Below the pieces are notes generated by a model, which worked only from the letters and a program-made list of their open reading frames with translations, was not told the origin of the DNA and searched no databases. Made by a program: the position numbers and the translations under genes. 64,000 bases of DNA from Blautia sp. Marseille-P3087 (GTDB lineage: Bacteria; Bacillota; Clostridia; Lachnospirales; Lachnospiraceae), in assembly GCF_900120195.1 (NCBI RefSeq), contig NZ_LT635539.1, forward strand, positions 2,451,441 through 2,515,440, read 5' to 3'. Position 1 is the stretch's first letter; the number at the start of each line of letters is the position of its first letter. This document shows, piece after piece, positions 6,586-45,787 of this stretch.

Positions 6586-8016
6586 GAGGAAAGTTGTATA
6601 AAAAAGTTCCGGGGAGATCATCCCCAGAACCCAAAGTGTCCATATAATATAATGAAGCAGAGCATAGCGGTCATTCGGCGGTGCACCGTCGCCGATAGAA
6701 AACCAGAGCGCAATGATCACGCAGAGGAGAAAACCTGGTGCAAGCAGACGGGAAATTCCTGCCGTATGTTTTTTCATGTTTTGAGGTTTGCGTCTGACGA
6801 AACGTACAATGCCTGTGAGTATGCTCATCAAAAACAGGAACATGAAAGTGTACAGGTAATAATTGTAATAAATTGTACTGAATGTCTGGCTGTTCTGGGA
6901 TACACAGTGAAGATTCCAGTCATCAGAAGTATTTACCAGACCATAAATGCTGAGAAAAGCGCTGACTGGGGTAAAGATCACACAGGTGATATCTTCCAGA
7001 ATATCGAAGATTACTTTACCCGGCTGATTTTTAAAGACAGTGGATGCCATTTCTTTATAGAGTTCTTCTGCCCTGTCTTCGCCGGCTTTTTCACGGAGAA
7101 GAGGAGCCATCTGGTACATGACATTGTTATTATGTCGGTCAAATTCCCGGGCATCATCCTCTGTTATCAGAGATTTGATCTCATCAGAGAAATCGTTGTA
7201 ATTTTGAGTCATATTGGGCCATACTACCCGGTCCAGAAGGACAAAACCGAATGTGGTCGGGATTCGGTTATAAATTCCAGGGTGCTGGGTGGCTTTGTTG
7301 ACAGCAGTAGCAGCACCGGTAGAAATAATTACTGTAGCAAGGACAAGAGGGATACCTCTGCGGAAAAAAGCTGAGTGACGATTTTTTACAAGCAGTACGA
7401 TAAAGCTGATCACAAGGAACAGCGTACAGGTGTAAAGTCTGTCTGCTCGAATGGTATATTCTACCAGCATGGATAAAGTGACAAGCAGATAGCTTTTCCA
7501 GTCAGCCGCATCTACATTTAAAATATGAATCAGTGCACCGATCATAAGCATCAGCATAGAAGTTGCGATAGAATCAGTAAGAATAGAAAAATTCATAAAA
7601 GTGATCATTGGGATGCAGGTAATGTACAGGCCCGTGAATACACTTCCCAGATAAAACAGCTTACTGTTTTGTTTTTTTAAATTTGGAAATAAGAGACAGC
7701 CAATCTGTACAGACAGGAAAATCGCAGAAAGTATGCAGAGAAGCGTCTGTCCGATATAGGCAAGTGTCTGGTAGGCAAGCGGGAGATGATTTGCCACTTT
7801 TACAGCGAACCGGATGAGTAATGGATACAAAAGCGGACGATACTCATCGACCATGAGGGTCTGGCTGAGGTTAAAATATTCCGTACTGTCTCCGAAGATC
7901 GGGATATTTGCCAGGTTTACCACCATCCATGCGGAGCCAAAACAGATTTGAATGGCCATCAGCAGACCCAGAAGGGTCAGAAACAGACGGCAAATGTTTG
8001 AGTTTTTCTTTTTCAT
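6580..8016 (-). CDS. Multipass membrane protein, GT-C glycosyltransferase-like
   Basis: 478 residues, about ten to twelve hydrophobic helices. After the first helix comes 'IFGDSTEYFNLSQTL', an acidic motif in the first outer loop like those of lipid-linked-sugar GT-C transferases (PMT/ArnT-like), and the C-terminal third holds a large outer loop. No name can be given with confidence. It overlaps the GT2-GtrA gene by 4 bp (ATGA). A plausible job is transferring a polyprenyl-phosphate-linked sugar made by its neighbour onto a surface glycan, in the manner of Gtr modules. Confidence 0.65.
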   Translation of the reverse strand: MKKKNSNICRLFLTLLGLLMAIQICFGSAWMVVNLANIPIFGDSTEYFNLSQTLMVDEYRPLLYPLLIRFAVKVANHLPLAYQTLAYIGQTLLCILSAIFLSVQIGCLLFPNLKKQNSKLFYLGSVFTGLYITCIPMITFMNFSILTDSIATSMLMLMIGALIHILNVDAADWKSYLLVTLSMLVEYTIRADRLYTCTLFLVISFIVLLVKNRHSAFFRRGIPLVLATVIISTGAATAVNKATQHPGIYNRIPTTFGFVLLDRVVWPNMTQNYNDFSDEIKSLITEDDAREFDRHNNNVMYQMAPLLREKAGEDRAEELYKEMASTVFKNQPGKVIFDILEDITCVIFTPVSAFLSIYGLVNTSDDWNLHCVSQNSQTFSTIYYNYYLYTFMFLFLMSILTGIVRFVRRKPQNMKKHTAGISRLLAPGFLLCVIIALWFSIGDGAPPNDRYALLHYIIWTLWVLGMISPELFYTTFLL

Positions 8017-43764: not shown

Positions 43765-44685
43765 ATGGAAAATATATATGATCTGGCGATTCTGGGAGCA
43801 GGTCCGGCAGGGATCTGCGCAGCTATTTATGCGACAAGAGCAAAACTGAATACAATCTGGCTGGATAAGAAATTTGTGCAGGGCGGTCAGATTGTGGACA
43901 CATATGAAGTAGATAATTATCCGGGACTGCCGGGAATCACCGGTCTGGATCTCGGGGAAGCAATGGCAGGTCATGCAGAAAAACTGGGCATGAAACCGCA
44001 GCGGGAGACAGTTCGTTCTATCGAGGCAGAGCAGGGAATCAAAGTCATCCGAACGAAAAAAAATGAATACCGTGCCAGAGCAGTGATCATTGCCTGTGGG
44101 GCAACACACCGCCACCTTGGAATCCCGGGTGAAGAAGAACTGAGTGGCATGGGTGTTTCTTATTGTGCGACCTGTGATGCAGCATTTTTTCAGGACAGGA
44201 CGGTTGTCGTGGTCGGTGGCGGAAACGTGGCGGTGGAGGATGCAATTCTTCTTTCACGTACCTGTAAAAAGGTCTATCTGGTACACAGAAGAGATGAGCT
44301 TCGTGCGGAGAAAATCCTTCAGGAGAGTTTCTTTGCATGCAAAAATGTGGAGATCATCTGGGACAGCATTCCATTATCCATTGAGGGAACAGATAAAGTG
44401 GAAGCATTGAAGATCCAGAACAAAAAAACACAGGAAGAAAGTTTCATTGAAACAGATGGTGTGTTTATTGCAGTCGGAATCGTTCCGGGAACAGAGAAAT
44501 TCAAAGATCTGGTGAAATTGGACGAAGCGGGATATATTGTGGCAGGAGAGGATGGAATCACCAGTGAACCGGGAATCTTTGCAGCAGGTGATATACGTAC
44601 CAAAAATCTCCGCCAGGTCGTAACTGCAGTCGCAGACGGGGCGAACGCGGTGGCTTCGGTACAAAGATACCTTCTCGATAAATAG
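43765..44685 (+). CDS. trxB: Thioredoxin reductase-like NAD(P)H:disulfide oxidoreductase
   Basis: 306 residues from ATG 43765 (GAGAGG upstream). FAD site 'LAILGAGPAGICAAIYA', redox pair in 'YCATCDAAFF' (CATC), NAD(P) site 'VVVVGGGNVAVEDAIL', 'HRRDELRA', and C-terminal FAD motif 'GIFAAGDIRTKNLRQVVTAVADGA'. Full-length low-molecular-weight thioredoxin reductase. No trx gene adjacent, so the partner (thioredoxin or another redoxin) is not shown. Confidence 0.92.
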   Translation: MENIYDLAILGAGPAGICAAIYATRAKLNTIWLDKKFVQGGQIVDTYEVDNYPGLPGITGLDLGEAMAGHAEKLGMKPQRETVRSIEAEQGIKVIRTKKNEYRARAVIIACGATHRHLGIPGEEELSGMGVSYCATCDAAFFQDRTVVVVGGGNVAVEDAILLSRTCKKVYLVHRRDELRAEKILQESFFACKNVEIIWDSIPLSIEGTDKVEALKIQNKKTQEESFIETDGVFIAVGIVPGTEKFKDLVKLDEAGYIVAGEDGITSEPGIFAAGDIRTKNLRQVVTAVADGANAVASVQRYLLDK

Positions 44686-44703: not shown

Positions 44704-44748
44704 AAAGAGCTATAGTTTCTGCAATTTAACGGAACTGTAGCTCTTTTG
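44704..44748 (+). terminator. Intrinsic terminator of trxB
   Basis: AAAGAGCTATAGTTTC / GAACTGTAGCTCTTTT, 12-nt loop, T run. Confidence 0.85.
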
Positions 44749-44820
44749 TTTTGAAAAAAATGTCGAATAAAAACGAACAAATAGCAAATTGCACAAAGCT
44801 TGTCGAATAATGGGGGAAAA

Positions 44821-44921
44821 TGTGGATAACGCGAAAAATGGTGTAAAAGTTATCCACATCCTAAAAAGGTTGAAGAATCGTTATATTTGAGTTATGCACA
44901 AAGTTATCCACATTATCCACA
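44821..44921. promoter_or_regulatory. Cluster of DnaA boxes
   Basis: Within 101 bp: four perfect TTATCCACA boxes (44821-44829 reversed, 44850-44858, 44904-44912, 44913-44921) and one TTATGCACA (44892-44900, fits TTATNCACA). A related TGTGGAATAA follows at 44931-44940, and TGTCGAATAA occurs at 44761 and 44801. It lies in the convergent gap between trxB and the V-ATPase operon, with no gene inside. No dnaA, dnaN or rpmH is visible. Confidence 0.85.
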
Positions 44922-44940
44922 AAGAATCAATGTGGAATAA

Positions 44941-45120
44941 GTGATTTACATAAATAAATAAAAAACAAATGTTTTGGTTAATAATGATGAAATTAACAAA
45001 TTCGAAAAAAAGATAGAAAAATCTATTGACTTTTTCATAGTGAAAATATTATTAAATTTTGCTTTCAAAAGAAAAATTTTAAACTTTCAAACTTTAATTA
45101 TCAGATAATAATAGCAATTA
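44941..45120. other. AT-rich tract beside the DnaA-box cluster
   Basis: 180 bp that is overwhelmingly A/T with runs such as AAATTTT and TTTAAACTTT, directly adjoining the DnaA boxes as a DNA-unwinding element would. No ORF, promoter pair or terminator is evident before the V-ATPase terminator. Confidence 0.55.
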
Positions 45121-45154
45121 AAAAGTCCATCCGCGTAATTGCAGATGGACTTTT
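45120..45154 (-). terminator. Terminator of the V-type ATPase operon
   Basis: Minus strand AAAAGTCCATC / GATGGACTTTTT hairpin with a T run, 10 bp after the subunit D stop. Confidence 0.85.
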
Positions 45155-45163
45155 GTAAGTTGC

Positions 45164-45787
45164 TTAAGAAGTCTGTTTCATTCGTTTAATAACTTTCAGA
45201 CGTGTGAATTCTTCTCGCTCTTTTTCCTCAAGAGCATTCTGGATATCCTTTGTCAGTGCCTCGTATTTCGGAATCGTAATGTTCTTTAATGCGTTGGCAC
45301 GTTTCTGGGTCTTCTTGATGTTGGCTGCAAGACGGATCGCTGCGTTTTCGATGCCTGCGAGCTGGATGGAAAGCTCTTTTACCTTTTCGAAGGCGGCTTT
45401 TGCTTCATCCAGAGAAGCTTTTGTGCTGTAGTAGGCATAAGTCGGGGTGTTGGTAAGCTGCTTTTCATATTCGACGAGTGGAATTTCCGTACCCATAACG
45501 CTTCGTGTCTTGATCCGAATGGAATCCTCAAGAGGAACGGTGTAGGAAACCTGCTGTACAAAGGCAATACCCATTTCCATGTTGGCTTTCTGAAGGGCTG
45601 CATAGGCGGCACGGAAAGTCACATCGATCTGTGACTGGATATCCTTCGCCTGATCGATCAGCTCCATCATTTCGCGGATCAGGATATTTCTTTTTTTATC
45701 CATCAGCTCAAATCCCTGACGGGAGAGTGCGAGGGAATTCTTGGCAAGAATTAAATTTCCCTTGGTGGGGAAGGTATTTGGATCCAT
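45164..45787 (-). CDS. ntpD: V-type ATP synthase subunit D
   Basis: 207 residues, the long coiled-coil central stalk subunit: 'PTKGNLILAKNSLALSRQGFELMDKKRNILIREMMELI' at the N-terminus and 'RLAANIKKTQKRANALKNITIPKYEALTKDIQNALEEKEREEFTRLKVIKRMK' at the C-terminus. It turns inside the A3B3 head. Last gene of the nine-gene operon, 14 bp after ntpB. Confidence 0.95.
   Translation of the reverse strand: MDPNTFPTKGNLILAKNSLALSRQGFELMDKKRNILIREMMELIDQAKDIQSQIDVTFRAAYAALQKANMEMGIAFVQQVSYTVPLEDSIRIKTRSVMGTEIPLVEYEKQLTNTPTYAYYSTKASLDEAKAAFEKVKELSIQLAGIENAAIRLAANIKKTQKRANALKNITIPKYEALTKDIQNALEEKEREEFTRLKVIKRMKQTS

Follow-up and report, generated by a model that had tools for sequence, protein, structure and literature searches.

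The window, i.e., the whole stretch of 64,000 nucleotides that we analyzed, corresponds to positions 2,451,441-2,515,440 of a 3,297,096-bp contig of Blautia sp. Marseille-P3087, and the positions 44xxx and 45xxx used below follow its numbering. As the sequence-only reading had described, two genes converge there on a short non-coding region: trxB, on the + strand, which ends at 44685, and ntpD, encoding the V-ATPase subunit D on the − strand, which ends at 45164 (both identities were checked with Pfam). A strong terminator-like hairpin lies behind each gene (Table 1), and the element thus sits between two terminators. It carries boxes for DnaA, which initiates copying of the chromosome. Four perfect TTATCCACA boxes and one TTATGCACA box are found inside 101 bp, two of them abutting, exactly as first reported. 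The 64-kb window contains no other perfect TTATCCACA box and, from the 70 perfect boxes present genome-wide, only ~3e-6 occurrences per genome of at least four such boxes in a given 101 bp would be expected. These 70 boxes compare with 9 for the backward pattern, and boxes seem to be enriched even outside clusters. The 180 bp that follow the boxes had been called nearly pure A/T; this was overstated, the stretch being clearly AT-rich at 82.8% A+T. Sequences resembling the Spo0A-box consensus, TGTCGAA (PMC5295017), are also present; they are common in Blautia copies and not family-wide, and we rejected them as a core part.

Table 1. Features of the element and of its borders (window numbering).
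Feature	Position	Strand	Basis and remarks
Terminator-like hairpin behind trxB (left border)	44704-44750	+	fold -22 kcal/mol, z -4.7
U motif TTGCACAAA	44789-44797	+	GCACAAA starts 60 bp before base 2 of first core box
Spo0A-box-like TTGTCGAA	44800-44807	+	likeness to Spo0A-box consensus; further TGTCGAA at 44761-44767
Extra inverted DnaA box TTATCCACA	44821-44829	−	sequence; in part of Blautia, not family core
Core DnaA box 4 TTATCCACA	44850-44858	+	sequence; TTTTCCACA in many Blautia
Spacer of fixed length (33 bp)	44859-44891	+	only first A/T tract clear in window copy
Core DnaA box 3 TTATGCACA	44892-44900	+	sequence
Core DnaA box 2 TTATCCACA	44904-44912	+	sequence
Core DnaA box 1 TTATCCACA	44913-44921	+	sequence; abuts box 2
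Conserved GATTTACATAA (family form GTTTACATA)	44943-44953	+	sequence
D motif, LexA-operator-like AAAAACAAATGTTTTG	44961-44976	+	GTTTTG starts 49 bp after box pair
T motif TTGAC	45026-45030	+	55 bp after GTTTTG; no conserved -10 behind
C palindrome, CodY-box-like AATTATCAGATAATA	45096-45110	+	motif likeness
Terminator-like hairpin behind ntpD (right border)	45121-45154	−	fold -21.4 kcal/mol, z -8.5

We looked for the cluster in related genomes, as the sequence-only reading had proposed, by gathering relatives through the V-ATPase gene ntpD, without reference to the boxes. It is present in nearly all ntpD-bearing Blautia relatives. Indeed, among the congeners whose sequence extends beyond ntpD, nearly all have, 3' of this gene, the common array TTWTCCACA-33 bp-TTATNCACA-3 bp-TTATCCACA-TTATCCACA, all boxes head to tail and starting at x, x+9, x+21, and x+63; departures are limited to single mismatches and one divergent copy. 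The neighbor on the far side varies among these genomes, trxB being often absent there, and the box spacings are kept. At six ntpD loci from outside the family, no boxes were found at the corresponding place.

The spaced box pattern occurs in 57 of 397 Lachnospiraceae genomes and the same pattern read backwards, which served as a geometry control, in none of the 397. Scanned exactly, 84,980 species yielded 110 stretches, nearly all from Lachnospiraceae. As these 110 loci were chosen by box geometry, their box spacing does not constitute independent evidence, which comes instead from the ntpD-selected Blautia set and from the motifs outside the original search pattern, i.e., the spacer tracts and the U, D, T, and C motifs. 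A model of the sequence alone, built from 41 of the 110 stretches with the window left out, gives the window a score of 71.6 bits. It finds matches in 349 of the 397 Lachnospiraceae genomes at E<=1e-3 and in ~263 at E<1e-10, the E-values being rough and the latter figure a hand count; the tested oriC regions reach up to 30.6 bits under this model, so that the weaker matches may be oriC. When the class was sampled, other families gave weaker and mostly partial matches, and no dnaA lay nearby in the loci examined. Several loci from other Clostridia families (L271-L283) show similar arrays with altered spacing, none with dnaA within 1.5 kb; the TTTGTGC motif is reversed in L271 and L272, and L279 has a D-like CAAAACACATGTTTTGTGG at the D position. 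The four-box geometry also occurs, without the D motif, in the Thermoactinomycetaceae Lihuaxuella, Paenactinomyces, and Thermoactinomyces (L165, L175, L229), where it perhaps represents an independent type of DnaA cluster. Thermoactinomycetaceae, other Bacilli, and a few others were removed by hand from the motif statistics given below.

The AT-rich tract is not a conserved unwinding element and contains separate conserved motifs, and the region between the boxes and the D motif holds GTTTACATA. Family-wide, A/T tracts occupy positions 5-8, 15-18, and 25-28 of the spacer between boxes 4 and 3, forming a 10-bp repeat whose periodicity reaches a power of 32 against a maximum of 1.4 in shuffled sequences; such phased tracts are predicted to bend the DNA intrinsically. 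Upstream, TGCACAAA stands at 50-52, 60-63, 70-74, or 80-83 bp from the boxes (classes 50/61/72/82) and at no distance in between. Downstream, TTGAC follows GTTTTG by 54-56 bp in most family copies. In some genomes, TGTCAA is found directly before the LexA-like site instead of TTGAC downstream; a TTGAC-N9-GTC palindrome was also considered and dropped, being present in only 11 of 50 copies. Several module distances shift by steps of one helical turn, and such whole-turn changes suggest that proteins assemble as a complex on a single DNA face. The element looks like a scaffold for such a complex. The nominal p-values of this phasing are too small because related sequences share ancestry, but the gaps between the distance classes can be seen directly in the raw counts.

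In most copies, the D motif (family form GAACnnnYGTTTTG) is found 49-52 bp past the box pair; isolated copies have it at 20, 28-29, 39-40, and 62 bp. It matches, family-wide, the operators of lexA's own promoter, the window copy being weaker. These distances were obtained by searching for GTTTTG; free of that bias is a LexA position weight matrix built solely from the lexA promoters of 31 genomes; in 55 of 74 elements, its best match within 600 bp is the D site (3.6% expected). In the window, the D motif is the top match of this matrix in 1.25 kb. With AAAC for GAAC, it is a middling LexA site, ranking 233rd of all positions; 24 non-coding sites, itself among them, score at least as high in the 2.15 of 3.30 Mb read. 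The presence of lexA does not discriminate between genomes with and without the element, 33 of 34 element-poor genomes carrying it, and we set this comparison aside as uninformative since lexA is nearly ubiquitous.

The C motif, AATTnTCWGAnAATT, is a palindrome found on both sides of the boxes, at about -106 to -194 and +173 to +280. We call it CodY-like by comparison with the CodY-box consensus, AATTTTCWGAAAATT. Over 71 elements, almost no C site exists within ~900 bp besides these two flanking places (8 sites elsewhere in ~1.9 kb), and the distances from the upstream C site to the boxes fit best a period of 10.6 bp. The window has one C palindrome only, which is one of 11 genome sites scoring at least 12/13 in the 2.15 of 3.30 Mb read. 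The genome contains codY (Pfam), and another of these 11 CodY-like sites lies ~110 bp upstream of it.

We then considered whether the element serves a neighboring gene. The neighbors vary, and we rejected a tie to any single one. The downstream gene is hpf, on the same strand, in ~27 of 110 loci, and it faces the element when it encodes a cell-wall-binding repeat protein (19/110) or is ntpD (12/110); trxB lies inside the fetched locus in 30 of 110. Of these neighbors, trxB and ntpD were confirmed by Pfam, as were the helicase-loader proteins mentioned below; hpf and the cell-wall-binding repeat protein are presumed names, given from similarity between loci and recognition of the sequences. The frequent same-strand hpf, the TTGAC motif kept across copies, and the nature of the three proteins, each a transcription factor, would speak for a promoter region controlled by DnaA, LexA, and CodY that serves either a neighboring gene (in many genomes hpf) or a short RNA. 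Among the 77 loci in which orientation was scored (both neighbors of at least 150 aa), both genes run in the direction of the element in 33, with hpf often downstream, and a promoter role is possible at those loci. However, both converge in 26 and the downstream gene faces the element in 33, so that a gene-specific promoter is unlikely as the common function. Moreover, no conserved -10 box follows TTGAC (-10 matches of 3.08 vs. 3.19 in shuffled sequences, i.e., no better), which led us to reject a Sigma-A promoter there; in some Blautia, the sequence past TTGAC leads directly into the end of ntpD; and an Rfam search of the element, e.g., for a raiA-type RNA, found no RNA. Overall, we regard the promoter or short RNA explanation as unlikely.

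In the genome of the window, box arrays lie upstream of dnaA, itself at 2,177.5 kb. The GC skew, which the sequence-only reading had suggested following, goes from negative to positive across dnaA, with a fine change at ~2,179-2,180 kb; a second, broad switch falls at ~0.35-0.46 Mb, and the sign does not change at the cluster, at 2.496 Mb. The cluster, on the right arm, is 318 kb from dnaA, where the skew flips, and hence is not the origin. Two observations had been named beforehand as together refuting the sequence-only reading: a skew flip at dnaA elsewhere, which is what we find, and absence of the cluster from relatives, which proved false. Across 17 assemblies, closed or nearly so, the distance between the element and dnaA ranges from 40 to 1078 kb (median 12% of a replichore, range 3-61%), and the element points away from oriC in 16 of them, a polarity that may be inherited through symmetric inversions and not selected.

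Recurrence across the Lachnospiraceae, away from the real origin, indicates that the element is probably a control site tuning the start of chromosome copying. With moderate confidence, we propose a datA-like sink or inactivation site for DnaA, conserved and non-coding, which would regulate initiation at oriC in trans, much as E. coli datA or the B. subtilis DnaA-box clusters do though with a different construction, and with possible inputs from LexA (SOS) and CodY (nutrients). DnaA would occupy the head-to-tail boxes 3-2-1 and box 4, and the predicted bend of the spacer would let box 4 and the TGCACAAA further upstream join the same DnaA complex, which is what IHF achieves at datA. This complex would hold or inactivate DnaA soon after the fork has duplicated the usually oriC-proximal locus, blocking early re-initiation. 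Through the LexA-like operator, which lies downstream in helical register, DNA damage could alter the complex, and through the flanking CodY-like palindromes, the nutrient state could do so as well. Against this proposal stand the window copy itself, with its weak A-tract spacer, single C palindrome, and middling D site, and a distance to oriC that is looser than that of datA in E. coli. A more far-reaching version, possible but rather doubtful, makes the element a family-wide integrator in which DnaA, LexA, and CodY would assemble in helical register, initiation at the distant oriC thereby responding directly to damage and nutrients. If true, Firmicutes would thereby have their first datA/DARS-type locus of defined architecture.

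The comparison with known systems favors datA. In E. coli, datA is a non-coding DnaA-box locus outside but near oriC, in which spacing matters, the essential boxes point in one direction, and an IHF site bends the DNA between separated boxes (PMC5742627, PMC4585315). Likewise, the core boxes 4-3-2-1 of the element are head to tail, invariantly so in the family loci compared, and the element is near oriC by its median distance. Unlike datA, it has phased A/T tracts, with a predicted bend, in the place of the IHF site, carries LexA-like and CodY-like motifs, and belongs to a different phylum, with no evident sequence relation between the two. DARS1 and DARS2 of E. coli also have a conserved box core and regulator sites outside oriC. 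A DARS-like reactivation site, where the complex would free ADP from DnaA and promote the next initiation, would agree with the fixed three-box core and the flanking protein sites of a conserved non-coding locus (PMC5742627, PMC4585315). However, the hallmark of DARS is a head-to-head box I/II pair, with Fis and IHF sites in DARS2, whereas the conserved core is here head to tail and the sole inverted box, at 44821, is not family-wide; reactivation therefore appears quite improbable. Because of the head-to-tail core and the predicted intrinsic bend, the element would work more like datA than like DARS. The suggestion of the sequence-only reading that the cluster might be a datA/DARS-like or regulatory DnaA site agrees with these data and is much strengthened by conservation, and its other option, an origin or part of one, fails.

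In Firmicutes, box clusters outside oriC are known in B. subtilis, where they are described as titration sites or sinks (PMC5295017) and where removing six of them causes early initiation (PMC5295017, PMC13220808). Plain titration of DnaA by box number alone would suit the rarity of such sites, only oriC, the window cluster, and one cluster at 2.625 Mb standing out in the 2.15 Mb read, and the finding that the loss of all six B. subtilis clusters is needed for a strong effect (PMC5295017). Yet titration needs neither fixed spacing, helical steps, and phased tracts nor LexA-like and CodY-like motifs, and the geometry and partner motifs of the element, unlike those clusters, are conserved family-wide; we hold this account to be very unlikely. 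The oriC of B. subtilis also mixes DnaA boxes with regulator sites, mainly Spo0A boxes (PMC5295017, PMC7561715); the element differs in lying away from oriC and in having LexA-like and CodY-like motifs. A study of DnaA binding in B. subtilis does not mention hpf/yvyD or trxB (PMC4447404). According to a 2026 review, B. subtilis has no IHF, datA and DARS loci are absent from it, and any regulator balancing its DnaA-ADP and DnaA-ATP is unknown (PMC13220808). In the open-access literature searched, we found no description of the element and nothing relevant either on Lachnospiraceae DnaA boxes or on clostridial DnaA boxes combined with LexA. For the DnaA-ATP/ADP question, such a conserved and structured DnaA locus, lying outside oriC in a large gut Firmicute family, offers a concrete target of 300-400 bp that can be deleted, and its motifs resembling LexA and CodY sites suggest that DNA damage and nutrition could act directly on replication control.

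Finally, a second or auxiliary origin, or a displaced copy of oriC, which the boxes next to AT-rich DNA had called to mind, deserves almost no credence and was discarded: the two sign changes of the skew are at dnaA and near 0.4 Mb, no DnaA-trio was found beside the window boxes, the box arrays upstream of dnaA are laid out differently, the oriC regions tested lack the U/D arrangement and score <=30.6 bits vs. 71.6 for the window, and the position of the element drifts along the chromosome arms.

Two further observations concern other DnaA-box regions of this genome. The GTTTACATAA of the element (window 44943-44953) reappears reversed, as TTATGTAAAC, upstream of dnaA (L034, ~7382-7391); could it be a common site for some factor at the element and in the oriC region? 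The cluster at 2.625 Mb (2625157-2625680; L035:15158-15681) contains five perfect boxes, with two abutting pairs and a reversed pair-3-TTATACACA order. It lies directly upstream of an operon for a DnaB_2-domain/DnaI-like helicase loader, and weak model matches near the same operon in other genomes suggest that this second cluster is conserved too.
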